Shown here one piece after another: positions 25,463 to 46,040 of a DNA stretch of 64,000 nucleotides. Numbering within the stretch: the first letter of the stretch is position 1; each line of letters starts with the position of its first letter. A model generated the notes under the pieces. It saw only the letters and a program-made list of their open reading frames with translations, was not told the DNA's origin and searched no databases. Origin of the DNA: an uncultured Bacteroidota bacterium (lineage in GTDB: Bacteria > Bacteroidota > Bacteroidia > B-17B0 > Aurantibacillaceae); NCBI GenBank assembly GCA_937873155.1, contig CALMVZ010000034.1, positions 1 through 64,000 of the forward strand, written 5' to 3'. Made by a program: the position numbers and the translations under genes.

Positions 25463-25936
25463 ATGAAACTATCCGAAATTAAAGCAATTCTTAACACTGC
25501 AACCGGTGTTAATTTTAAATTACCTAACGGAACTTTAGTTCCTGAACATTTTCATGTAACAGAAGTTGGCATGGTTCACAAACATTTTATTGATTGTGGC
25601 GGAAGTGTCAGGAATGAAAAAGTAGCTAATTTTCAACTATGGAATTCTGATGATACCGATCATCGTTTGAAACCTGAGAAATTAATTAAGATCATTGTGT
25701 TATCAGAACAAGTTCTGGGTTTAGAAGACCTGGAGATCGAAGTGGAATATCAAAGCGATACGATTGGTAAATATGGTTTAGAATTTGACGGTAAGGATTT
25801 TTTACTGACTGCAAAACAAACGGATTGTCTTGCCAAAGATAATTGCGGTGTTCCGTCAGAAAAGAAAAAGATCTCTCTTTCTGAATTACAGAACACGAAA
25901 CAATCCTGTTGTGCACCGGGCACTAAATGTTGTTAG
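25463..25936 (+). CDS. DUF6428-family protein
   Basis: This 157-residue protein has the features I associate with DUF6428, an ars-operon companion in Bacteroidota: LPNGTLVPEHFHVTEVG, FIDCGG and NFQLWN. The C-terminus is cysteine-rich (TDCLAKDNCG and QSCCAPGTKCC), a plausible soft-metal ligand set. It is probably cytoplasmic, with no signal peptide. It lies 10 bp after the methyltransferase and 3 bp before the phosphatase-like gene. Confidence 0.75.
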   Translation: MKLSEIKAILNTATGVNFKLPNGTLVPEHFHVTEVGMVHKHFIDCGGSVRNEKVANFQLWNSDDTDHRLKPEKLIKIIVLSEQVLGLEDLEIEVEYQSDTIGKYGLEFDGKDFLLTAKQTDCLAKDNCGVPSEKKKISLSELQNTKQSCCAPGTKCC

Positions 25937-25939
25937 TTT

Positions 25940-26554
25940 ATGAATCTTTCAATAAGATCATATTGTGATAATTTAATGGAGTCCTTTACCGGTATTCCGC
26001 AACAACGTAAGGAGTTATTGGACAAGATCACCAATTACATTCAAGGCAAACAGGCAGCAAATAAACCTGTACATCTCGTTTATATTTGCACTCATAATTC
26101 CAGACGGAGTCATTTTGGACAAGTCTGGGCGAAAGTAGCGAGTGTTTATTTCGGGATAAAAGATGTACATACATTTTCGGGAGGAACCGAAGCGACAGCT
26201 TTTAATATCAATGCGATCAATGCGCTTAAAAGAGTAGGCTTTGATATTAAACCAATAAGTATTGAGAAGAATTCAGTTTACTTAGTTCTTTATGATGAAA
26301 AAGAACCGCCAATAAGATGTTTTTCAAAAACGTATGACGATCCGAAAAATCCTAAGGAAGGATTTGCTGCTATTATGACTTGCAGCGACGCGGAGGAGAA
26401 TTGTCCTTTTATCCCGGGAGTTGAATTAAGGATAGGTACAACTTACGATGATCCTAAAGCTTTTGACGGGACTTCTTTACAGGACGAAAAGTATGATGAA
26501 CGGTGTAAGCAAATAGCGCTTGAAACTTTTTACGTATTTTCAAAAGTAAAATAA
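25940..26554 (+). CDS. LMW protein-tyrosine-phosphatase-like arsenate reductase
   Basis: This 204-residue protein carries the phosphatase P-loop CTHNSRRS (Cys50 to Arg56, CX5R) after the strand VHLVYI. ArsC enzymes of the thioredoxin-coupled class share this fold and loop and reduce As(V) to As(III). Additional cysteines (MTCSDAEENCPF) could supply the redox relay. The operon context favours arsenate reduction over phosphotyrosine hydrolysis. The N-terminal ~40 residues extend beyond the minimal LMW-PTP fold. Confidence 0.82.
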   Translation: MNLSIRSYCDNLMESFTGIPQQRKELLDKITNYIQGKQAANKPVHLVYICTHNSRRSHFGQVWAKVASVYFGIKDVHTFSGGTEATAFNINAINALKRVGFDIKPISIEKNSVYLVLYDEKEPPIRCFSKTYDDPKNPKEGFAAIMTCSDAEENCPFIPGVELRIGTTYDDPKAFDGTSLQDEKYDERCKQIALETFYVFSKVK

Positions 26555-26556
26555 GT

Positions 26557-27279
26557 ATGAGACGGTTTTGCTTTTCGGCCATACTTTTTATTAGTTTATT
26601 ATCTTCTTCTCAGAATTTATATTATACCGGTTTTTTTCCTACTATTGATCATTCAGGAGACCTGAATGATAAAATGGGATACGGCTTGTATTATTTCGCT
26701 GCGTTTCCTGCCAGGAATGTTGTAGAACCGGACAGTAAAAAGGATTTTAATTTTCTGCTATTTTATTCTGAGCAATCACTTACTTTTAATGCATCAAAAA
26801 AAGTATCTTTTACCGGAAGTTATGTTTATCAAAGGGCCAATGCAGTTTATGATAACTATATAAACGAGAGCCGTTTTTATGTTCAGGCAAAATATAAACA
26901 CACTTTAAAGAATTGGAATGTTGCCCATCGTTTACGCTTCGATGGCCGGTTTATTCGAAACCGCCTTACAGATCAAACACCTTTCACCCACCGCCTACGT
27001 TATTTAATTGGTTTAGACATTCCTTTAAAGACTAAGAACGCAAATGCATATTTTGCAATGTACCAGGAATTCTTTTTCAATACAGTGAGCAAGGCTAGGC
27101 CAGTGTACGAAGAGAACTGGGCTTATGCAGGTATTGGCGTTAAGATAAATGAAATTCATAAATTAGAACCCGGAATACTTTATATTACGTGGTACAATGG
27201 AAACAATTCATGGTTCAATCAATATTATTTGCAATTAACATGGGTCAGTCATTTAGATCTCTCACGAAAAAGAAAATAA
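26557..27279 (+). CDS. DUF2490 outer-membrane protein
   Basis: This 240-residue protein has a short signal peptide (ending SSSQ) and beta-strand alternation throughout. The stretch VAHRLRFDGRFIRN followed by THRLRYLIGLDIPL is the signature region of DUF2490. It is probably a small outer-membrane barrel. It starts 2 bp after the arsenate reductase and abuts the aquaporin, so it belongs to the ars operon. Confidence 0.72.
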   Translation: MRRFCFSAILFISLLSSSQNLYYTGFFPTIDHSGDLNDKMGYGLYYFAAFPARNVVEPDSKKDFNFLLFYSEQSLTFNASKKVSFTGSYVYQRANAVYDNYINESRFYVQAKYKHTLKNWNVAHRLRFDGRFIRNRLTDQTPFTHRLRYLIGLDIPLKTKNANAYFAMYQEFFFNTVSKARPVYEENWAYAGIGVKINEIHKLEPGILYITWYNGNNSWFNQYYLQLTWVSHLDLSRKRK

Positions 27280-27900: not shown

Positions 27901-28437
27901 ATGAGATCAAAAGTTGAGACCATATGGATGGAGCATTACAAAGAATTGGAACGCTTTATATTCTCCAGATTAAAAGACACTGATATCACAAACGATGTTT
28001 TGCAGGATGTATTTTTGAAATTGCATGGTAAGATCGATACTTTAAAAAATGAAGAGAAAATAAAACCATGGTTGTACCGGGTCACACGTAATACAATTGC
28101 CGATCATTTCAGGGAACAGAAATTTTCTGCAAATACCGATACAATGGCATCCGAAAGTGAAATAAATGCAAATGAAAGATTTGCCGGGTGTGTCCAGCCA
28201 CATATCAATAAGTTACCTGATATCTATAAAGAAGCTTTGATTAAAACAGAATTTCAAAATTATTCTCAATTGCAATTAGCTGAAGAACTCAATATTTCCT
28301 ATTCAGGTGCAAAGAGCCGGGTGCAGCGTGCCAAAGAATTATTGAAGGGTTATTTCAAACAATGTTGTAATATATCGAATGATAAATACGGTAATATCCT
28401 GAATTTTGATGTAAAGAAGGATTGTAAATTGTGCTAA
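27901..28437 (+). CDS. sigZ: RNA polymerase sigma factor SigZ
   Basis: This 178-residue ECF-type sigma factor has region 2 (FIFSRLKDTDITNDVLQDVF, IKPWLYRVTRNTIADHFR) and region 4 (LPDIYKEALIKTEF, LAEELNISYSGAKSRVQRAK). The Cys-rich tail with QCC, GNILNFDVKKDC and a final Cys is characteristic of SigZ. It closes the ars operon with no gap after the aquaporin and is followed by a strong terminator. The thiol tail could let it sense metals or redox state; that is inference. Confidence 0.88.
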   Translation: MRSKVETIWMEHYKELERFIFSRLKDTDITNDVLQDVFLKLHGKIDTLKNEEKIKPWLYRVTRNTIADHFREQKFSANTDTMASESEINANERFAGCVQPHINKLPDIYKEALIKTEFQNYSQLQLAEELNISYSGAKSRVQRAKELLKGYFKQCCNISNDKYGNILNFDVKKDCKLC

Positions 28438-28756: not shown

Positions 28757-29101
28757 GTGAAAAGCATTACCAACATATTATTATTCTGTTTTATCACGCT
28801 GACAGTTGCTCCGGCTTCATTAATGATATTCAATTCCCTTAAGGCACAATGTAATCCCGATAGCTATCGGGAAGAGTGTGTAATGGTTGAAGAAGGAGAA
28901 ACTTGTCCTATAACCGATATGGAATGTTGTCCCGGCATGTGTAATCCTGTTCAATGTTGTTATTGCTGTTTTTTGTGTACAGTAGATACTAAGAAATTAG
29001 AGATAAAGGTCTTTGAGAGTAATATCAATAAGCAAAATACAGATGATCAATTCGATCTGTCTGATTTTAGTTCCGATTGCTGGCAGCCGCCCCGATCTTA
29101 A
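28757..29101 (+). CDS. Cys-rich exported hypothetical protein
   Basis: GTG start at 28757; 114 residues. A hydrophobic N-terminal segment (residues 5-28, ending LKAQ) serves as signal peptide. Ten or more cysteines follow in a short span (ECVMVEEGETCPITDMECC, then MCNPVQCCYCCFLC). An 18-bp palindrome (28855-28872) lies inside the coding sequence and encodes PDSYRE. I do not recognise the family. Position beside sigZ and two other Cys-rich genes suggests a metal-related role. Confidence 0.6.
   Translation: MKSITNILLFCFITLTVAPASLMIFNSLKAQCNPDSYREECVMVEEGETCPITDMECCPGMCNPVQCCYCCFLCTVDTKKLEIKVFESNINKQNTDDQFDLSDFSSDCWQPPRS
28855..28872. repeat. Palindromic repeat, copy 1 (inside a gene)
   Basis: TCCCGATAGCTATCGGGA is a perfect 18-bp palindrome. 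It keeps the reading frame of the Cys-rich gene. Further copies lie at 29111 and 63785. Confidence 0.85.
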
Positions 29102-32030: not shown

Positions 32031-32221
32031 TTTTCCGCAAAATCGGTAAAGTAAAAAGTCCTGAATATTCGGGAATTATCCACTTAAAACACCCGGAGAT
32101 AAAGTATTTAAGCAGGGTCGATCCGGCGAGGTAAGACATTATTACATTCGAGTTTAGGATAATGTTTATAAGGCAGGAGATTAATATAAGTAATAGAAAT
32201 ATTTACTATTTTTACTCTATT

Positions 32222-32782
32222 ATGACACTATTTGTGAGAAATATGGTCTGCAGTAGATGTAGAATGGTTGTAAGGGGTGAACTTGAGAAAGCAGGAATAG
32301 AGTTCCTTTCCGTAGACCTTGGAGAGATCCAACTGACCAAAGAACCAACCGATAAACAAATTGAACAACTTGATGAAGGATTAAAACAGCATGGTTTTGA
32401 ATTGATCGATGATAAGAAAAGCAGAATGATCGAAAAGATCAAAACAGCGATTGTAAAGCTTATTCATCATAACAATGATACGATAAAAACAAACCTTTCA
32501 GATTACATAGCCGATAAACTCCACTACGATTATACTTATTTGAGTAACCTGTTCTCAGAGGTAGAAGGTACAACAATAGAAAAGTATTTTATCGCTCAGC
32601 GAATTGAAAAAGTGAAAGAGTTACTTGTGTACGATGAACTTTCCCTTTCAGAGATCTCTGATCGTTTGGGTTATAGCAGCGTGGCCTATTTATCAAGCCA
32701 GTTCAAAAAAACTACCGGCCTCACTCCTTCTTTTTACAAATCGTTAAAAGAACATAAAAGGAAGAATATTGAGGAACTGTAA
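32222..32782 (+). CDS. AraC-family regulator with N-terminal HMA-like CxxC domain
   Basis: The ATG at 32222 gives 186 residues (an upstream in-frame ATG at 32162 adds 20 unconserved residues). Residues 1-~65 resemble an HMA fold with Cys10 and Cys13 (NMVCSRC), then GFELIDDKKSRMIEKIK. Residues ~90-180 are the double helix-turn-helix of AraC (LHYDYTYLSNLFSEVEG, LSLSEISDRLGYSSVAYLSSQ, FKKTTGLTPSFYK). The layout suggests a metal- or thiol-sensing activator. Its last codon overlaps the first of six identical-format boxes that I propose as its binding sites. Confidence 0.85.
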   Translation: MTLFVRNMVCSRCRMVVRGELEKAGIEFLSVDLGEIQLTKEPTDKQIEQLDEGLKQHGFELIDDKKSRMIEKIKTAIVKLIHHNNDTIKTNLSDYIADKLHYDYTYLSNLFSEVEGTTIEKYFIAQRIEKVKELLVYDELSLSEISDRLGYSSVAYLSSQFKKTTGLTPSFYKSLKEHKRKNIEEL

Positions 32783-32842
32783 ATATCATAAATCCTTCCA
32801 AAGATTACATAAACAGGGAGCATCAAGATCATAGTATTTTTG
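32779..32842 (+). promoter_or_regulatory. Regulon box A and -7 element (HMA protein promoter)
   Basis: The 36-bp box is at 32779-32814, with half-sites CATAAA at 32787 and 32808, 21 bp apart. TATTTTTG at 32835-32842 begins 20 bp after the box. The box overlaps the stop codon of the AraC-type gene. Confidence 0.8.
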
Positions 32843-32858
32843 TATAAAAACTAATACT

Positions 32859-33404
32859 ATGAAAACAAGAAAATCAATTTTAACACTGTTCATTGCAATG
32901 CTAATGAGCAGCTCTGCTTTTGCAAATTTCGTTTCTGCAAAAGTTAAAGTAACCGGAGTGACATGTAGCATGTGCTCAAATTCAGTGCATAAGGCCTTAT
33001 CGTCGCTATCTTTTATAGATAAGATCAACGTTGACCTCGAAAACGCAGAGTTCACACTAACTTTTAAATCGAATGAAAAAGTGGTTATGGATGAGATCAG
33101 GAATAAGATCGAAGGCGCCGGTTTTTCAGTTGGACAATTGATCGCTGATTTTAAATTCAATGACCTGCACGTTACAAAAGATCTTCATTACGATTTTGAG
33201 GGAAATACCTACCATTTTGTGAATGTGGACAATAAACACCTGAACAGTATTGCATCTATCCGTTTTGTGGACAAAGGCCTTACCTCTGCAAAAGAACACA
33301 AAAAATATGTTGGACTTACCACATTTAAATGCATCAAAACCGGAACTTCTCAGGATTGTTGTCACATGGCCTCTAAAAAGAGAATCTATCACGTAACAAT
33401 TTAG
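32859..33404 (+). CDS. Exported heavy-metal-associated (HMA) domain protein
   Basis: This 181-residue protein has a signal peptide (residues 1-22, ending SAFA) and then an HMA domain with the metal site GVTCSMC (Cys36, Cys39) and the HMA helix SNSVHKALSSL. A ~75-residue C-terminal part with DCCHM and several His may add ligands. It is expected in the periplasm as a copper- or mercury-type chaperone or sink. It is the first gene controlled by box A, 17 bp after the -7 element. Confidence 0.82.
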   Translation: MKTRKSILTLFIAMLMSSSAFANFVSAKVKVTGVTCSMCSNSVHKALSSLSFIDKINVDLENAEFTLTFKSNEKVVMDEIRNKIEGAGFSVGQLIADFKFNDLHVTKDLHYDFEGNTYHFVNVDNKHLNSIASIRFVDKGLTSAKEHKKYVGLTTFKCIKTGTSQDCCHMASKKRIYHVTI

Positions 33405-33408
33405 TGAA

Positions 33409-34332
33409 ATGAAAAAGTTTTTTCTTATTGCGTCAATTGTCCTTTCGGGGGCAACAGCAATAGCTCAGGAATTATATCCGAATTCCGAGCCTGCGAGTAT
33501 AGTTCCAAAACATTCACTTGGTATTCGTTTGATGAATGAAGCCTATACAACGCCATCGAAGTTCAAAAGCTGGCATGGCGCTATGTTCATGTACGGCATA
33601 AGTTCAAAGTTCATGATGAATGCAATGGTAACAACGTCAAATCACCATTACAAAACACTTCCTGAAAGTTATATTCAGAAAGACGCGAACCAAGTTGAAT
33701 ATGTAGCATCAACATCATCACCGGACAATTATTTGTTTGAATCAGTGAACCTTGGTTTCAGATATAGGGTTGTGAATAAAGATGGTGATCACCGTCATTT
33801 TAGAATGGCTTTATATGGTAACGGCGTATATGCTGAACAACCACATGACGAAGCTGAGGTTTCGTTAATGGGCGATAATAAAGGAGTTGGCGGCGGATTG
33901 ATCTCTACTGTGTTAGTAAACAAATTAGCGGTGTCATTAACCGCAGGCATTATCAAACCTTTTTCTTACAGAGAAAGCGCATCGAAGATCTCTTTAAATT
34001 ATGGTAACTCCTATAACTATAGTTTATCATTCGGATATTTAGTTTATCCTTTCAAGTATAAAAGCTATGATCAAACGAACATAAATCTGTATGCTGAATT
34101 CCTGGGTAAGTCATACGATGCCCTGAATGTTACTAAAGACCAGAATACTGTTATAGCATCGGATAATGCTTACAAGAAAGGAAACTACATAGAATTTCGC
34201 CCTGCCATCCAATTCATTGTGAAGTCAAATTTAAGAATTGATGTTAGTACCGCTATTCCAATGGTAAACCGTTCTTACATCCGCAAATACCCTCTTTACC
34301 TCTTGAATCTGCAATACTATTTTTTTCTCTAG
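33409..34332 (+). CDS. Outer-membrane beta-barrel protein of the metal cluster
   Basis: This 307-residue protein has a signal peptide (ending AIAQ), many amphipathic strands and a C-terminal aromatic strand (LLNLQYYFFL) as in outer-membrane barrels. Met- and His-rich stretches (GAMFMYGISSKFMMNAM, SNHHYK, GDHRHF) could bind soft metals. It lies 4 bp after the HMA gene and is cotranscribed from box A. Its specific family is not recognised. Confidence 0.68.
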   Translation: MKKFFLIASIVLSGATAIAQELYPNSEPASIVPKHSLGIRLMNEAYTTPSKFKSWHGAMFMYGISSKFMMNAMVTTSNHHYKTLPESYIQKDANQVEYVASTSSPDNYLFESVNLGFRYRVVNKDGDHRHFRMALYGNGVYAEQPHDEAEVSLMGDNKGVGGGLISTVLVNKLAVSLTAGIIKPFSYRESASKISLNYGNSYNYSLSFGYLVYPFKYKSYDQTNINLYAEFLGKSYDALNVTKDQNTVIASDNAYKKGNYIEFRPAIQFIVKSNLRIDVSTAIPMVNRSYIRKYPLYLLNLQYYFFL

Positions 34333-34351: not shown

Positions 34352-34415
34352 GTAAATCTTATAAATCCTTCCAAAGATTACATAAACTGCCCGCCCTGTG
34401 CGGGCAGTACCTTTG
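34352..34415 (+). promoter_or_regulatory. Regulon box B and -7 element (HMA-MauE promoter)
   Basis: The box is at 34352-34387; half-sites TATAAA at 34360 and CATAAA at 34381, 21 bp apart. TACCTTTG is at 34408-34415. A short GC hairpin (GCCCG/CGGGC, 34389-34406) lies between the box and the -7 element. Confidence 0.8.
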
Positions 34416-34435: not shown

Positions 34436-35236
34436 ATGACACACACGTATAAAATAACCGGAATGACATGTAACTCATGTCAGGCAAAAGTTCAAAAGGC
34501 CCTTGGAAATGTAAAAGGGGTAACGAACGCAAAAGTAGATTGGCACAAAGGCGAAGCTGATATTACCATGAACAATCACATAAGCACCTCGGTGCTGCAG
34601 GAGGCACTAAAAGCCTATCCAAAATATAAGCTTACTGAAAAGACAGACGACACTTCGGCAGTTTTAAAAGAAGAAAAAGATCCCTGGCTAAAAAAGCACA
34701 TCACCGAAAGCATGCAAGTTAACACGCCTGTATTTGAAGAAGAAGAAGAGAAGAGCTGGTTTCAAACTTATAAACCGGTACTATTGATCTTCGCCTATAT
34801 CACAGGTATTACTCTGTTCATTCAATATGGAATGGGAGAATTCATGTGGATGGAATGGATGAACCATTTTATGGCAGGATTTTTCATCACTTTCTCTTTC
34901 TTCAAACTTTTAAACCTTTCCGGATTTGCAGATAGTTACATGAGCTATGATATAATTGCAAGACGATGGAGAGGCTGGGGTTATGTTTATGCATTTGTTG
35001 AACTTGGTCTTGGTGTTGCATATATATTAGAATTCGATCCGATCATCACGAATGTTGTAACGTTAGTAGTAATGGGATTAAGTATTATTGGTGTATTACA
35101 GAGCGTATTGAACAAGCGTAAAATAAAATGTGCCTGTTTAGGAGATGTTTTCAATTTACCAATGAGTACTATCACCATTATTGAAGATGGATTAATGATA
35201 GGAATGAGTGTAATTATGTTGTTGAACCTGATCTGA
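34436..35236 (+). CDS. HMA domain fused to MauE/DoxX-like membrane protein
   Basis: This 266-residue protein begins with a cytoplasmic HMA domain (residues 1-~67, GMTCNSC with Cys12 and Cys15), then a linker and four TM segments (~115-133, 140-158, 183-200, 205-265). The membrane part resembles MauE-type redox proteins and holds a CAC motif (KIKCACLGDVFNLP). The fusion suggests delivery of metal or electrons across the inner membrane. It is led by box B and followed 10 bp later by a His/Met-rich outer-membrane protein. Confidence 0.82.
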   Translation: MTHTYKITGMTCNSCQAKVQKALGNVKGVTNAKVDWHKGEADITMNNHISTSVLQEALKAYPKYKLTEKTDDTSAVLKEEKDPWLKKHITESMQVNTPVFEEEEEKSWFQTYKPVLLIFAYITGITLFIQYGMGEFMWMEWMNHFMAGFFITFSFFKLLNLSGFADSYMSYDIIARRWRGWGYVYAFVELGLGVAYILEFDPIITNVVTLVVMGLSIIGVLQSVLNKRKIKCACLGDVFNLPMSTITIIEDGLMIGMSVIMLLNLI

Positions 35237-35246
35237 AATTAAAAAC

Positions 35247-36590
35247 ATGAAAAAATTAATTGTTTTAATATTAGCGGTTGGTTTTGGAACTCTGAAGGCG
35301 CAGAATGACCATTACCAACATCATCAAACGGATACTGTAAAGACCGAAGCTGCAAAAAAGGACACCGTTGATCATGCACATCATGATATGTCGAATATGA
35401 GCCATGCCTTTTCATTGAATTTACCAATGAGCAGAAATGGTTCCGGGACAGGATGGCTTCCGGATTCAACTCCAATGTACGGCTACATGATACATGGAAA
35501 AAAATGGATGTACATGATTCATGGAAATATCTTTGCAAGGTATACAGGGCAGGATATTTTTAATGCAGGAACACGCGGAGATGAAAAATTCGATGTCGTA
35601 AGTTGGTTCATGGGAATGGGACAACGCCGCGTAGGTAAAAGGGGATTGTTCCGTTTTAGCGGCATGATATCGGCCGACAACGCGTTTGGCGGTGACGGTT
35701 ATCCTTTACTCTTCCAGACAGGAGAAAGCTGGAAAGGAAAACCCCTTGTTGACCGTCAGCATCCACATGACCTGTTTTCTGAATTATCAATCGCATATAC
35801 ACACATGATAAACAAGGATGTTGATCTCTTTGTTTATGCAGGATATCCGGGAGAGCCGGCATTGGGTTCAGTGGCTTTCATGCACAGAGTATCTTCATTG
35901 TACGGACCAGATGCACCATTAAGTCACCATTGGAATGACGGAACACATATAACATTCGGAGTTGTTACAGGCGGAGTGCGTTTAGGAAAATTTAAAATAG
36001 ATGCTTCTTCATTTACAGGAAGGGAACCGGATGAGAACCGTTTGGATTTTGACGAACCGAAATTTGATTCGTATAGCGGAAGGATCTCGTACAACCCAAA
36101 TGCATATTGGTCGTTCCAGGCATCACAAGGATTTATTAAGAGTCCGGAATCAGTTAGACCGAATGAAGATGTTTATCGTACCACAGTTTCAGCAGTTTAT
36201 AGTAAGCCTTTACGAAGAAATGGTTTCGTAAACGTCACGGGTTTGTGGGGGATGAATAAGAGTCATGGCAATGAGCATGCCCTGTTGCTGGAAGCGGCGT
36301 ATGTTAAGAATATATTCTCTATGTACGGCAGATATGAAATGGTGCAGAAATCAATTCACGAATTAGATCTGGATGAAAAAGCTTACGAACACGATGCGTT
36401 ATTTAATATTAATGTTTTGACTATTGGAATGAGTTTAGATGTAATAGATTCCAAAGCAATGCGGCTTGCGTTTGGAGGACAAGGGACAGTCTACGCCCCG
36501 GATGAAAGATTAGAATCTATCTACGGGAAGAATCCGGTATCAGCACAAGTATTCATTCGACTCTATCCTCCACGAATGAAAGTAAACTAA
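35247..36590 (+). CDS. His/Met-rich outer-membrane protein of the metal cluster
   Basis: This 447-residue protein has a signal peptide (residues 1-18) and then a His-rich segment (NDHYQHHQTD, DHAHHDMSNMSHAF) like a copper-binding tail. Conserved-looking motifs follow: PMSRNGSGTGWLPDSTPMYG and DRQHPHDLFSELSIAYTH. Strand alternation continues to the aromatic end. I have seen the DRQHPHDL motif in hypothetical proteins near metal genes, but know no function. It is cotranscribed with the HMA-MauE gene from box B, and a terminator follows. Confidence 0.72.
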   Translation: MKKLIVLILAVGFGTLKAQNDHYQHHQTDTVKTEAAKKDTVDHAHHDMSNMSHAFSLNLPMSRNGSGTGWLPDSTPMYGYMIHGKKWMYMIHGNIFARYTGQDIFNAGTRGDEKFDVVSWFMGMGQRRVGKRGLFRFSGMISADNAFGGDGYPLLFQTGESWKGKPLVDRQHPHDLFSELSIAYTHMINKDVDLFVYAGYPGEPALGSVAFMHRVSSLYGPDAPLSHHWNDGTHITFGVVTGGVRLGKFKIDASSFTGREPDENRLDFDEPKFDSYSGRISYNPNAYWSFQASQGFIKSPESVRPNEDVYRTTVSAVYSKPLRRNGFVNVTGLWGMNKSHGNEHALLLEAAYVKNIFSMYGRYEMVQKSIHELDLDEKAYEHDALFNINVLTIGMSLDVIDSKAMRLAFGGQGTVYAPDERLESIYGKNPVSAQVFIRLYPPRMKVN

Positions 36591-36653: not shown

Positions 36654-36717
36654 GTAAAAATCATAAATCCTTCCCAAAATTCCATAAACAATAATGCTTG
36701 TTACCGAGGTAGTTTTG
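36654..36717 (+). promoter_or_regulatory. Regulon box C and -7 element (MFS transporter promoter)
   Basis: The box is at 36654-36689; half-sites CATAAA at 36662 and 36683. TAGTTTTG is at 36710-36717. It lies 20 bp after the preceding terminator's T run. Confidence 0.8.
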
Positions 36718-36736: not shown

Positions 36737-38119
36737 ATGGAAACAACAATCAATCATGCTATCCCGTACGCCAAGCGATGGGCGGCACTTGCGGTGATCT
36801 GTACCGCGCAATTCATGGTAATTATGGATACATCTATTATAGGTGTAGCATTACCTGCAATTCAAAAAGATCTTGGATATTCATCATCAGGCCTTCAATG
36901 GATATTCAATGCGTACGTAATTTTATTAGGAGGTCTTTTACTGTTAGGAGGAAAATTATCCGATATGTTTGGTCCACGTAAAATATTTATGTGGGGCTTC
37001 GGAATCTTAACAGCTGCTTCTTTATTAGCAGGTTTAGCCTGGGACGAAACATCAATGAACATTGGACGAGCTTTGCAAGGTGCAGGTTCTGCATTGATCG
37101 CTCCAGCTGCGCTTACTTTATTAATGACCATGTTCACAGATCCAAAAGAATTAGGAAAAGCTTTTGGTTTTTGGGGGGCATCAGCGGCAGCCGGTGGATC
37201 TGCGGGAGTATTCTTAGGTGGATTGCTTACCGAAACACTATCATGGCCTTGGGTATTCTATATTAATATCCCATTAGGCATTCTTGTTTTTTTATTAAGT
37301 AAACCATTATTAGTACAAGGAATGAAACAAAAAAGCAAACTCGATCTGCTAAGCGCGGTCATCGCAACCTTATCTTTAGTATTATTAGTTTACGGTATTG
37401 TATCACCGGAACAAACTGTAATTGCAAAAGCTATTACTCTACTTGTTTCAGTTTTATTATTTGTAATCTTTATTGTTCGTCAGAAGAGATCAAAACATCC
37501 GTTACTTCCGCTTTCAATTTTCAAAGCAAAAAATCTAAGTTCAGGAAATATTGTAATGATGTTAATGGCCGGTGCGTGGATCCCGTTGTGGTTCTTCTTG
37601 AATCTTTACTTGCAACAAGTATTGCAATTATCAGCCTTCAATAGCGGGCTCGCATTATTGCCAATGACAATTGTGATCATGATATTAATGGTAGGCTTTA
37701 CAGGAAAGATCGTTGCGAAATTTGGATTTAAGGTGCCTTTAATTGCAGGACTTATTTCATTAGCAGGATCATTGCTTTTATTTTCACAAGCGGATGCTAA
37801 TGGTTCGTTTTTAGTTGATGTGTTACCTGCTTCTATTCTAGGGGCTATAGGAATGTCATTAGCATATATTCCCGGAACAATTGCATCGATGTCTGGTGCT
37901 AAGCCGGAAGAAACAGGATTGGCTTCAGGTATCTCAAATACGAGCTACCAAGTTGGTTCAGCGATTGGATTAGCAATAGTAGTTGCAATTAGTTCTTTGA
38001 TCTTAACAGCACAACCAAGTGTTGAGGTGATCACAGAGAGTATAAGAGTTGCGTTTATTTCTGCGGGAGTTATATGTTTAGCTGCTTTAGTTGTTGCTAT
38101 ACGTTATATAAAAATGTAA
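36737..38119 (+). CDS. MFS drug transporter, DHA2 (EmrB/QacA-like)
   Basis: This 460-residue protein has about 14 hydrophobic segments. Family signatures are MDTSIIGVALPAIQKDL in the first helix, GGKLSDMFGPRKIFMWG (motif A) and GRALQGAGSALIAPAALTLL. DHA2 pumps export drugs, dyes or metal-chelate compounds using the proton gradient. It is a single-gene unit between two terminators and is led by box C, so it is predicted to respond with the metal genes. Confidence 0.9.
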   Translation: METTINHAIPYAKRWAALAVICTAQFMVIMDTSIIGVALPAIQKDLGYSSSGLQWIFNAYVILLGGLLLLGGKLSDMFGPRKIFMWGFGILTAASLLAGLAWDETSMNIGRALQGAGSALIAPAALTLLMTMFTDPKELGKAFGFWGASAAAGGSAGVFLGGLLTETLSWPWVFYINIPLGILVFLLSKPLLVQGMKQKSKLDLLSAVIATLSLVLLVYGIVSPEQTVIAKAITLLVSVLLFVIFIVRQKRSKHPLLPLSIFKAKNLSSGNIVMMLMAGAWIPLWFFLNLYLQQVLQLSAFNSGLALLPMTIVIMILMVGFTGKIVAKFGFKVPLIAGLISLAGSLLLFSQADANGSFLVDVLPASILGAIGMSLAYIPGTIASMSGAKPEETGLASGISNTSYQVGSAIGLAIVVAISSLILTAQPSVEVITESIRVAFISAGVICLAALVVAIRYIKM

Positions 38120-38179: not shown

Positions 38180-38243
38180 GTAAAAATCATAAATCGTTTC
38201 AAAAATTACATAAACAGCAAACAAGGTTGCAGGCATACCTTTG
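38180..38243 (+). promoter_or_regulatory. Regulon box D and -7 element (metallothionein-like promoter)
   Basis: The box is at 38180-38215; half-sites CATAAA at 38188 and 38209. TACCTTTG is at 38236-38243. Confidence 0.8.
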
Positions 38244-38280: not shown

Positions 38281-38400
38281 ATGGAAACAAACAAAGTAAA
38301 AAGTAACTGCAGTAATGTAAACTGCACTTGCGACAAATGTACGTGCGGAAGCAATTGCACAGATTCAAATTGTGCTTGCGGTTGCAACTGCTGTAAGTAA
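38281..38400 (+). CDS. Metallothionein-like 39-residue Cys-rich peptide
   Basis: ATG at 38281 to TAA at 38398-38400 encodes 39 residues with 11 cysteines in CxC, CxxC and CC patterns (NCTCDKCTCGSNC, NCACGCNCCK) and a polar METNKVKSN start. There is no signal peptide and no aromatic residue. It is likely a cytoplasmic metal-thiolate peptide that buffers soft metals. It has its own box D promoter and its own terminator, which strongly supports a real gene despite the size. Compare the 44-residue peptide at 28479-28613. Confidence 0.82.
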   Translation: METNKVKSNCSNVNCTCDKCTCGSNCTDSNCACGCNCCK

Positions 38401-38432: not shown

Positions 38433-38496
38433 GTAAAAATCACAAATCGTTCCCAAAATTCCGTAAACAGTAACAGTGATACCCCGCATACCTTTG
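38433..38496 (+). promoter_or_regulatory. Regulon box E and -7 element (MarC-family promoter)
   Basis: The box is at 38433-38468; half-sites CACAAA at 38441 and CGTAAA at 38462, the most divergent pair but with spacing kept. TACCTTTG is at 38489-38496. It rules out an upstream GTG start at 38476 for the next gene. Confidence 0.78.
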
Positions 38497-38514: not shown

Positions 38515-39081
38515 ATGAACAACATTATTACAGTAAGCCTGGTGCTATTTTCGGTGATCGATTCAGTAGGAACGTTGCCGTACATTATTCAATTAAAGAA
38601 ACAAGAAGGCGAATTAAAGAAATTAAAGATCACTTTGATCGCAGGCGGGCTCATGCTCAGCTTTTTTCTTTTTGGGGAAGGTCTTTTAAAAATGATCGGA
38701 TTAGACGTAGCTTCATTTGCTTTAGCTGGTGGTGCGTTAATGTTCTTGTCAGCCGCAGAAATGATCCTGGGAATTAGTTTTTCAAAGGAGGAAAAGGGCG
38801 TAGCATCTACCAGGTCTATTGTCCCACTTGTTTTTCCGATGTTGGCCGGAGCAGGAACTTTAACAACGTTAATCTCACTACGCGCTGTGTACAATGAATA
38901 TGTTATACTGATTGGAATAGCGATCAACGTGGCTATACTATATCTTGTATTAAATTCAGCAGGATGGATAGAAAAGAAAATGGGAAGCGGTAGCCTTGGT
39001 TTGGTAAAGAAAGTATTTGGAATTATTGTTTTAGCGATGGCCTTTAAGATCTTTAAGACCGGATTTGATACTACTTTTTAA
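38515..39081 (+). CDS. MarC/NAAT-family membrane protein
   Basis: The ATG at 38515, 19 bp after the -7 element, gives 188 residues. There are six hydrophobic segments and the MarC-family signature SIVPLVFPMLAGAGTLTT (residues ~103-120), with SVIDSVGTLP near the N-terminus. The family has no settled substrate, although some archaeal members were reported as amino-acid transporters. Placement under box E links it to the metal or thiol response here. Confidence 0.88.
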   Translation: MNNIITVSLVLFSVIDSVGTLPYIIQLKKQEGELKKLKITLIAGGLMLSFFLFGEGLLKMIGLDVASFALAGGALMFLSAAEMILGISFSKEEKGVASTRSIVPLVFPMLAGAGTLTTLISLRAVYNEYVILIGIAINVAILYLVLNSAGWIEKKMGSGSLGLVKKVFGIIVLAMAFKIFKTGFDTTF

Positions 39082-42789: not shown

Positions 42790-43670
42790 AAACAACAACC
42801 AAAAATAAATTCCTTAATTATTCTTTAGTAAGAATAGTTTTAGGCTTAGTTCTTTCTTTCGCCTCATTTATTATTGCTCAGCAATTAGTGGGTAAGCTAC
42901 TTGATCTTACATCAATTGATAACAGCTTCAGAAATTTTATTAAAGGTATAATTGCGTCAGTTTTTGTTATCACCGGCTACATCCTTTTTTATAGCAAGGT
43001 TGAAAAAAGAGATATAACCGAACTTTCAAAAAAAGGGATTGTAAAGAATATAGTCTTTGGAATATTGATCGGTGCAGCAATACAAATACTAACATTATTT
43101 GTTATATCCATTCCTGGCCAACTACAAATCGTTTCTGTTAATCCTCTTTCTTTTGTAGTAACTCCATTAGCGGTGGCATTGTCTGTTGCCATTTTTGAGG
43201 AGATATTGCTTCGCGGAATCATATTTCGTATAGTGGAAGAAAAGCTGGGAAGTATTACAGCATTGTTGCTTTCAGCTTTGATCTTTGGAGGAGTTCACTC
43301 AATGAATCCCGGTAGTTCGATTATTTCATCGCTATGTACAGGCATTGTTGGTTTTATATTTGGAGCCGTGTATGTTTACAGTAGAAGCTTATGGTTGCCA
43401 ATAGCTATTCATTTTTCCTGGAACTTTGTTCAATCAGGTATTTTTGGTGCTGTCACTTCCGGTAATGAGAAAACAAGTAGCCTGTTAACCACAGAAATTT
43501 CAGGACCCGAAATAATTACCGGTGGGGCATTTGGCCCGGAAGGAACAATACAAGCGGTAATATTATGGTCGGTCGTTGCTATAATACTATCGATTCTGAT
43601 TGTTAAGCAAAACAAGTTAATTCCCTTATCATTTAAACCCGGTAAAAATCATAAATCAATACCAAAATAA
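42786..43670 (+). CDS. CPBP-family intramembrane metalloprotease
   Basis: This 294-residue protein has about eight hydrophobic segments. The CPBP (Abi/Rce1) motifs are EEILLRGIIFR (EExxxR), FGGVHS and HFSWNF, which form the putative intramembrane metal site. Family members cleave prenylated or signal-type membrane substrates in some systems. The last ~10 codons are overlapped by regulon box F, so its 3' end doubles as a promoter region for the TonB receptor. Confidence 0.87.
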   Translation: MKTTTKNKFLNYSLVRIVLGLVLSFASFIIAQQLVGKLLDLTSIDNSFRNFIKGIIASVFVITGYILFYSKVEKRDITELSKKGIVKNIVFGILIGAAIQILTLFVISIPGQLQIVSVNPLSFVVTPLAVALSVAIFEEILLRGIIFRIVEEKLGSITALLLSALIFGGVHSMNPGSSIISSLCTGIVGFIFGAVYVYSRSLWLPIAIHFSWNFVQSGIFGAVTSGNEKTSSLLTTEISGPEIITGGAFGPEGTIQAVILWSVVAIILSILIVKQNKLIPLSFKPGKNHKSIPK

Positions 43671-43705
43671 CATAAACAGCAGAGCTTCATAAAGAAGTAG
43701 CTTTG
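43642..43705 (+). promoter_or_regulatory. Regulon box F and -7 element (TonB receptor promoter)
   Basis: The box is at 43642-43677; half-sites CATAAA at 43650 and 43671. TAGCTTTG is at 43698-43705. Most of the box lies within the 3' end of the CPBP protease gene. Confidence 0.8.
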
Positions 43706-43727: not shown

Positions 43728-46040
43728 ATGAAAAATTTAATCGTAATATTAATCGTAGCCCTTAGCTCAATGAAGCTAAGCGCTCAAACTAAATTTACCT
43801 TAACAGGGAACGTAAAAGACAAAACCGGAGAAGCACTGATAGGTTCTTTGGTATTAGTTCAAGAACTAAAAGGCGTTGGTGCCGTAGCCGACATTGAAGG
43901 TAATTACCAAGTAACACTTCCAAATGGTAACTACACTATTAAAGTCACTTCAATTGGATATAAGCCTATTCTAAAAAAAGTGAACCTCAATGGAAATAAA
44001 GTACTTGATGTGATTTTAGAAGATGACACTCAAGTATTAGAGGAAGTAGTTATCACAGTAAAGAAGGAAGAAACAGTATTGGTACAAGCTGGGGTTGAAA
44101 AATTGGACATGGAACAGATCAATAAGATTCCCGTGCTTATGGGAGAAAGAGATGTTCTGAAAACAATACAACTGTTGCCCGGTGTGAAAGGCGCAGGTGA
44201 AGGTAACTCAGGTTTTTATGTAAGAGGCGGAAGTTCAGATCAGAACTTAGTTTTGTTAGATGATGCTCCGGTATACAATGCCACACATTTGTTCGGAATG
44301 TTCTCGACCTTCAATTCAGATGTGATAGACGGTGTTACTTTATATAAAGGTAACATGCCTTCAAACTACGGCGGAAGATTATCATCAGTGCTTGATATAA
44401 CAACTTTAGAAGGAAATAAAGAAAAATATCATACATCAGGAAGCATTGGTCTGATCTCTTCGAAATTAAATGTTGAAGGACCAATTGTAAAAGAAAAAGG
44501 ATCATTCATGTTAAGTGGCAGAAGAACTTACGCAGATCTGTTCTTAAAATTAGCACCGGACAAAGACTTAAGATCAAAACAACTTTATTTCTACGATCTC
44601 AATGTGAAATCGAGTTACATGATCAACGATAAGAACAGAATATTCTTTACAGGATATTATGGTCGTGACAAATTGAGATTTGATAAGAATTTTGGAATGG
44701 ATTGGGGTAATATGACAGGTACGTTGAGATGGAATAAGATCTATAGTCCAAAACTTCTTTCAAACACATCTTTCGTTTACTCAGATTACGATTATAAAAT
44801 TGAGATAAAAGTGAATGACGCGACAGTTGACCTTACATCAAAAATTAAAAGTCATACACTAAAGCATGAATACAAATATTTGTTCAACGACAATAGTAAA
44901 CTTGTATTTGGTTTATCAGCAGCAAATCATGAGTTCTTACCAGGCCAGGTAAATACAACAGATGAAAACATCATTAAGCCCGTTAAACTGCAGAAAAAAT
45001 ACGCGCTTGAGAATGCAGTGTATGTAAATCATGAGTGGAAGCCTTTAAAAAATTTAAATTTAGTATATGGGGCGCGCGTTTCAAGCTTCAGCATAAAAGG
45101 AAAGGGAGTATTTAATATATATGACCAACAAGGCAGTGTGATTTCCACCAAAACACTTCACCCTGAACAATTAGATAAAACTTACTTCAACTTTGAACCA
45201 AGATTATCTGCAAGTTTTGCGATGAACAACAGCAATTCATTAAAAGCATCTTATACAAGAAATGCACAAAATATTCACTTGCTTTCAGGATCAACATCCG
45301 AAAACCCAACGGATATCTGGTTACCGAGCAGTTACAATATTAAACCTGAGATATCGAACCAGTACGCTTTAGGTTATATGAAAACCTTGAAAAATGAAAT
45401 GTATGAGTTAAGCGCAGAAACATATTACAAGGATCTTTTTAACCAGATCGATTACAGGAATGGTGCCAGTGTATTAGCAAATGAAAGAGTGGAAGCTGAA
45501 TTGTTATACGGAATAGGCCGTGCTTATGGATTAGAATTAAGCTTAAAAAAGAAAACAGGAAAACTCACCGGTTGGATAGCCTATACTTTAGCAAAAACAG
45601 AACGTAAGATAGATGGCATCAACAATAACCAATGGTATAATGCAAAGCAGGATCGTACTCACGACATTTCAATAGTTGGAATATATGATTTCAATAAAAA
45701 ATGGTCGCTGTCAGCAACCTGGGTTTACAACACCGGCAACGCAGTAACATTTCCAACCGGTAAATACCGTATAGACGGAAAAGTAAATTATGTCTATTCT
45801 GAAAGAAACGCATCAAGAATGCCCTCTTACCATAGAATGGATGTTGGTGTAACCTGGAACAATAAAAAGACAGAAAAATTTGAATCGAGTTGGAATCTTT
45901 CCATCTACAACCTTTACGCTCGTGAGAATGCCTACCAAATTTCATTCGAACAAGATCCGAATGACGCAACAAGAACACGTGCAATGCAAACGACATTATT
46001 CAGAATCATCCCATCCATTAATTACAATTTTAAATTTTAA
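43728..46040 (+). CDS. TonB-dependent receptor with carboxypeptidase-like domain
   Basis: This 770-residue protein has a signal peptide (ending LSAQ), a carboxypeptidase-regulatory-like beta-sandwich (residues ~22-105, FTLTGNVKDKTGEALIGSL), a plug (IQLLPGVKGAGEGNSGFYVRG region, DDAPVYNATHLFG) and a ~500-residue barrel ending RIIPSINYNFKF. It imports a substrate with TonB energy. No TonB box is certain. It pairs with the DUF4249 lipoprotein 3 bp downstream and is led by box F, which suggests a metal-linked ligand. Confidence 0.92.
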   Translation: MKNLIVILIVALSSMKLSAQTKFTLTGNVKDKTGEALIGSLVLVQELKGVGAVADIEGNYQVTLPNGNYTIKVTSIGYKPILKKVNLNGNKVLDVILEDDTQVLEEVVITVKKEETVLVQAGVEKLDMEQINKIPVLMGERDVLKTIQLLPGVKGAGEGNSGFYVRGGSSDQNLVLLDDAPVYNATHLFGMFSTFNSDVIDGVTLYKGNMPSNYGGRLSSVLDITTLEGNKEKYHTSGSIGLISSKLNVEGPIVKEKGSFMLSGRRTYADLFLKLAPDKDLRSKQLYFYDLNVKSSYMINDKNRIFFTGYYGRDKLRFDKNFGMDWGNMTGTLRWNKIYSPKLLSNTSFVYSDYDYKIEIKVNDATVDLTSKIKSHTLKHEYKYLFNDNSKLVFGLSAANHEFLPGQVNTTDENIIKPVKLQKKYALENAVYVNHEWKPLKNLNLVYGARVSSFSIKGKGVFNIYDQQGSVISTKTLHPEQLDKTYFNFEPRLSASFAMNNSNSLKASYTRNAQNIHLLSGSTSENPTDIWLPSSYNIKPEISNQYALGYMKTLKNEMYELSAETYYKDLFNQIDYRNGASVLANERVEAELLYGIGRAYGLELSLKKKTGKLTGWIAYTLAKTERKIDGINNNQWYNAKQDRTHDISIVGIYDFNKKWSLSATWVYNTGNAVTFPTGKYRIDGKVNYVYSERNASRMPSYHRMDVGVTWNNKKTEKFESSWNLSIYNLYARENAYQISFEQDPNDATRTRAMQTTLFRIIPSINYNFKF

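Follow-up and report, generated by a model that had tools for sequence, protein, structure and literature searches.

The 64,000-nucleotide stretch of DNA from an uncultured Bacteroidota bacterium analyzed here (the window) encodes a 186-residue protein, P0001, that is probably a Cu(I)-responsive activator of a copper-resistance regulon, built on an AraC scaffold. Its predicted fold, conserved Cys pair, copper gene context, tandem operator with fixed spacing to the promoter and six sites in the window were all computed; from the sequences we infer the identity of the metal, its binding, dimerization, activation and that P0001 itself occupies the sites. The features are collected in Table 1.

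P0001 joins an HMA-like domain directly to an AraC-type DNA-binding domain. The open reading frame called mechanically opens at 32162, while the homologues start at the ATG at 32222, and both Cys10 and Cys13 are in the encoded protein. Residues 2-60 match the Pfam HMA model (PF00403) over its full length (1-62 of 62; E 4.8e-4), though at 20.9 bits P0001 alone falls under the curated gathering cut-off of 24.8 bits, and as single sequences just 18 of 110 homologues reach E≤0.01. The label "HMA-like" was chosen accordingly, the evidence at the profile level being stronger: a profile of the 110 homologues aligns residues 2-62 with copper HMA structures (CopZ, 6ff2, 2e-4; ATP7B, 7xuk, 8e-10) and residues 73-177 with AraC DNA-binding domains. 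The HTH_18 and HTH_AraC matches (PF12833/PF00165) are well over their cut-offs (63.9 bits against 33.6), and P0001 has the two HTH motifs within about 100 residues that define AraC/XylS regulators.

The AlphaFold2 model made with the 110-homologue alignment has a mean pLDDT of 90.7, with values of 92-97 over residues 1-60 (about 1-63). Strands are predicted at residues 2-6, 28-32, 35-38 and 60-62 and helices at 11-23 and 44-56, with the AraC helices after them; residues 1-63 would thus form a beta-alpha-beta-beta-alpha-beta unit with the CxxC in loop 1, between strand 1 and helix 1. Directly after it comes the helix at 65-82 of the DNA-binding part, leaving a near-zero linker. Superposed on the metallochaperones CopZ, Atx1, GolB and HAH1, residues 1-63 give Z of about 7 (2.1-2.5 Å over 59-63 residues), and the rest of the model gives Z of 12-14 with AraC-type domains. 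A Z of 7 is middling by itself, and it is the agreement of sequence, predicted topology and Cys placement that supports the HMA assignment. The initial annotation had read the N-terminus as a metal-binding-type fold joined straight to a double HTH and had named a ferredoxin-like fold as the check; Pfam, profile, AlphaFold2 and superposition agree on the former, and the model and its superposition on HMA metallochaperones give the latter.

Homologues of P0001 are common in the phylum. Of 296 sampled genomes, 208 have some match, in many cases to another AraC protein, and by hand count about half of the 296 have a full-length homologue. The 80 named loci are mostly from Bacteroidota, with a few labelled Ignavibacteria, Chlorobiota or Gammaproteobacteria, the last probably mis-binned. 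The non-redundant set of 253 homologues has 197 members with both Cys, 52 with Ser10 and Cys13 and four with something else; these were taken from the better-scoring hits, and the proportions are those of that sample. A chance origin of the CxxC was rejected since the pair is retained in 197 of the 253. Met8, Val9 and Arg12 are near-invariant as well. The 110-sequence alignment was made of Cys-pair members only, and its invariant Cys are partly a matter of selection. In a tree built without column 10, nearly all Ser10 members form one clade, with two or three further isolated losses (L234, L235/L236), and the distribution of Cys10 and Ser10 needs a minimum of four changes. Conservation of the Cys pair, the other check named at the outset, thus holds in most homologues, the losses falling mostly in one paralogous clade with another gene context. 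One locus (L136) has both a Cys-pair copy and a homologue at 682 (+) without either Cys (MINAES), which adjoins an HMA protein. The genome of the window encodes a third homologue (L003; G000:C13:295969-296352) with the same DNA-binding half and an N-terminus without the HMA domain.

The Cys-pair regulators are found near copper genes. Copper-type genes lie within 3.5 kb of 164 of the 197 Cys-pair regulators (the other 33 are without a copper neighbour) as against three of the 52 Ser10 members, two of these three seemingly spurious; for P-type ATPases the counts are 86/197 and 1/52. A basal Cys-pair group with a non-copper context was also seen. The adjoining ATPases are mostly of the CPC type, making copper the likeliest metal, and one representative scores 617 on the copper-translocating model TIGR01511 (cut-off 397). 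Multicopper oxidases and CopZ-like proteins recur in the same neighbourhoods. In contrast, the Ser10 members neighbour PAS histidine kinases (23/52), receiver proteins (21/52), cupins (15/52) and stress-type genes. Fisher p-values for these counts take no account of relatedness, and a test on independent pairs was not significant; as the split amounts essentially to a single event (one clade with two or three further losses), this is a consistent contrast rather than independent replication. At L243, L254, L259 and other Ser10 loci, MVSxRC replaces MVCxRC, and PAS histidine kinases, receiver proteins, cupin and CsbD-like genes adjoin the regulator. As the Ser10 group is predicted to retain the same order of structural elements, the clade apparently reused the HMA fold for another signal while retaining one Cys.

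A candidate operator is shared across the family. About 66% of loci have a motif in the gap between the Cys-pair regulator and the next gene, with a consensus of about ATnTTAtAAATCtTttCcAaAATTnTgTAAC. A matrix from one half of the tree, with its threshold set so that 1% of shuffles match by construction, matches 66% of the other half, compared to 7% when the reverse strand is searched and 7% in the region ahead of the regulator; trained on the other half, the search converged on a coding motif and the operator was not recovered. The k-mers first found enriched downstream of the regulators (GGAATGAC, ATGACCTG) were likewise discarded, being coding sequence for the GMTCxxC of the next gene. The motif consists of two direct repeats with YRYAA cores 21 bp apart, and letters at equivalent positions of the two half-sites vary together at offset 21 (p<0.001 for one position, ≤0.002 for a second). 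A promoter-like box lies 21-22 bp past the right half-site in 79 of 112 sites, where about 0.26 would be expected per position; TAnnTTTG is the -7 box of Bacteroidota. By analogy, the candidate operator would be placed like that of an AraC-family activator overlapping the -33 region. Asymmetric direct-repeat sites near a promoter are a trait of AraC/XylS regulators, and such sites are present here, with fixed spacing and half-site covariation, P0001-type proteins being their presumed binders. Since a motif scan of the region upstream of the regulator gave no operator, autoregulation is unsupported.

In the 296 genomes of the phylum, pattern matches are far more numerous than those of a reversed-pattern control. 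Where a full-length regulator is present, a strict operator match occurs in only about one third of the genomes (47 of 142); among those without, it occurs in three of 155 (p 4e-14, by hand tally, uncorrected for relatedness and base composition). Flavobacterium-like genomes (group g37; L284-L299) have up to about ten operator matches each, and those examined precede non-copper genes; the numbers suggest larger regulons of paralogous regulators. Ser10 members too have a similar candidate operator nearby, ahead of non-copper genes. Because similar operators precede non-copper genes in both settings, related regulators probably recognize similar DNA and respond to different inputs.

In the window, searching with just the half-site pattern gives six pairs, all on the forward strand, all exactly 22 bp before TAnnTTTG and each ahead of a gene, while 60 resampled windows together yielded a single match. 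The same pattern search over the whole 4.85-Mb genome finds seven matches, with none for the reversed pattern, and the seventh precedes CopA, a copper-type P-ATPase. A second regulator in this genome is 65% identical to P0001, and either could act at each candidate site. The operator-bearing CopA lies in a second copper island (L266; G000:C26:150000-168000), together with the paralogous regulator, a CusA/CzcA-type RND protein, a multicopper oxidase and HMA proteins.

Table 1. Features of the window at and downstream of the P0001 gene, with the basis of each assignment.
Feature	Position	Strand	Basis
P0001, AraC-type regulator with N-terminal HMA-like domain	32222..32782	+	Pfam, profile, AlphaFold2, superposition
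HMA-like sensor domain, residues 1-63	32222..32410	+	profile, AlphaFold2, superposition
Cys10-x-x-Cys13 motif (CSRC)	32249..32260	+	sequence, conservation
AraC double HTH (HTH_18), residues 96-173	32507..32740	+	Pfam
Candidate operator 1, half-sites 21 bp apart	32783..32812	+	pattern; TAnnTTTG box 32835-32842
Exported HMA protein, putative target	32859..33404	+	Pfam, operator 1 ahead
Predicted outer-membrane-type protein, same gene run as 32859..33404	33409..34332	+	no Pfam/NCBIfam match
Candidate operator 2	34356..34385	+	pattern; TAnnTTTG box 34408-34415
HMA-MauE membrane protein, putative target	34436..35236	+	Pfam, operator 2 ahead
Exported protein of no assigned family, after HMA-MauE gene	35247..36590	+	
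Candidate operator 3	36658..36687	+	pattern; TAnnTTTG box 36710-36717
MFS efflux transporter, putative target	36737..38119	+	operator 3 ahead
Candidate operator 4	38184..38213	+	pattern; TAnnTTTG box 38236-38243
39-aa metallothionein-like peptide, 11 Cys, unannotated, putative target (METNKVKSNCSNVNCTCDKCTCGSNCTDSNCACGCNCCK)	38281..38400	+	operator 4 ahead
Candidate operator 5	38437..38466	+	pattern; TAnnTTTG box 38489-38496
MarC-family membrane protein, putative target	38515..39081	+	operator 5 ahead
Candidate operator 6	43646..43675	+	pattern; TAnnTTTG box 43698-43705
TonB-receptor-like protein, putative target	43728..46040	+	read by eye, operator 6 ahead

The MarC gene more likely starts past its promoter box than with the GTG at 38476. 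When the surroundings of every regulator were scanned for small Cys-rich ORFs, five further loci (L062, L064, L138, L184, L231) turned up, with ORFs of 39-52 aa and 7-12 Cys, 84-157 nt past the regulator. In each of the five, the operator score is high and the spacing is 22 bp, while other Cys-rich ORFs score far lower. The metallothionein-like peptides scanned have no match in Pfam or NCBIfam, and the 39-aa peptide and the similar ones are candidate new bacterial metallothioneins. Elsewhere in the window, an arsenate-reductase-like protein and its neighbours, followed by an aquaporin-like gene (25463-27279, +), probably form an arsenic cluster as read by eye, and a Cys-rich exported protein with a very weak DUF6660 match (28757-29101, +) lies behind a gene (27901-28437) for a sigma-factor-like product that has Cys in its tail.

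Under the copper-sensor scenario, excess cytosolic Cu(I) would bind Cys10 and Cys13 of the HMA-like domain, possibly supplied by HMA chaperones; as the putative targets include HMA proteins, direct hand-over from such chaperones to P0001 is plausible. Metal loading, perhaps with Cu bridging two HMA-like domains in a dimer, would place two molecules on the two half-sites 21 bp apart, adjoining the -7 box at the position of the -33 element. P0001 would then activate, rather than repress, the genes for HMA proteins, efflux proteins, the metallothionein-like peptide and CopA. The metal input proposed by the initial annotation is supported by the gene neighbourhood and the shared candidate operator, both of which point to a copper-type signal.

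It is unlikely that the domain instead senses another soft metal (Ag, Zn, Cd or Hg), or several. HMA CxxC sites bind soft metals of several kinds, the structures on which residues 1-63 superpose include Cd- and gold-bound HMA proteins and a ZntA domain, and in the window no Cu ATPase adjoins the P0001 gene while generic efflux genes are among the putative targets. However, most ATPases neighbouring the family are CPC-type proteins with copper-translocating scores, multicopper oxidases appear repeatedly, as do CopZ-like proteins, and the candidate operator precedes the CopA of the same genome. Less probable still is a Cys pair that senses thiol redox state or reactive species by forming a disulfide, the copper genes being induced within an oxidant response. 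Such sensing has an AraC-family precedent in RclR, and the retention of Cys13 across a whole clade with Ser10 near stress-type genes suggests that one Cys does more than serve a two-Cys metal site, yet the predicted fold and the placement of the motif match metal carriers, and the Cys-pair group is tied specifically to copper genes. The least probable account takes the HMA-like domain as a mere dimerization or protein-interaction module, with regulation via expression level or partners such as HMA chaperones; the Ser10 clade, which keeps the predicted fold and the kind of operator without the two-Cys site, implies that the fold can serve without metal, but this would leave the conserved Cys10 and Cys13 of the copper-associated group unexplained.

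Given its distribution, the P0001-type regulator is probably a widespread copper sensor. If so, it would be a main copper sensor for Bacteroidota, the AraC scaffold would gain a metallochaperone-type input, and its operator would offer a concrete means to read regulons in many genomes, unannotated metallothionein-like peptides included. The sister groups provide a natural comparison: they share one predicted fold and have similar DNA sites, with either two Cys and copper genes or one Cys and stress-type genes. The fuller proposal, about as likely as not, is of an undescribed, phylum-wide metalloregulator class: an AraC-scaffold copper activator with a captured metallochaperone domain, fed by chaperones and dimerized by Cu(I), whose regulon includes cryptic metallothionein-like peptides and whose one-Cys sister clade was re-wired to a two-component stress module. 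The AraC HTH and the HMA domain are known parts. Open-access full text gave no account of an AraC-HMA copper regulator with its operator and regulon, which is weak evidence as subscription journals and preprints were outside the scope; "AraC" matches in PMC9240420 and PMC9948745 were author names.

Compared to known copper regulators, P0001 presumably does the same job as CueR (MerR), CsoR, CopY and CusRS, the control of copper detoxification, but differs from them in sensor and DNA-binding architecture. Pfam and NCBIfam scans of P0001 gave AraC HTH and HMA models, with no CueR, CsoR, CopY or CusR family among the matches listed. With CopZ, Atx1 and the CopA N-domain it shares the predicted fold, the CxxC in loop 1 and homology at the profile level; unlike HMA metallochaperones and P1B-ATPase domains, it is joined to a DNA-binding domain, and the motif of its family is NMVCxRC, with a near-invariant Arg12, rather than the usual GMTCxxC. 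Ada of E. coli, an AraC-type regulator with a Zn-Cys sensor domain, is a precedent for coupling a Cys metal site to AraC HTHs, and the fold of the HTH part of P0001 matches N-Ada (1u8b). However, Ada senses the methylated DNA backbone by methyl transfer, and its sensor fold and signal differ from those of P0001. With the AraC family, including E. coli AraC and the small MarA and SoxS, P0001 shares the C-terminal double HTH (PF12833; fold match Z 12-14), but in place of a cupin-type ligand pocket it has a 63-residue HMA-type domain and almost no linker. The I1-I2 operator of E. coli AraC is a tandem direct repeat with 21-bp periodicity, and the candidate operator described here is likewise a pair of tandem direct repeats with the same 21-bp periodicity.
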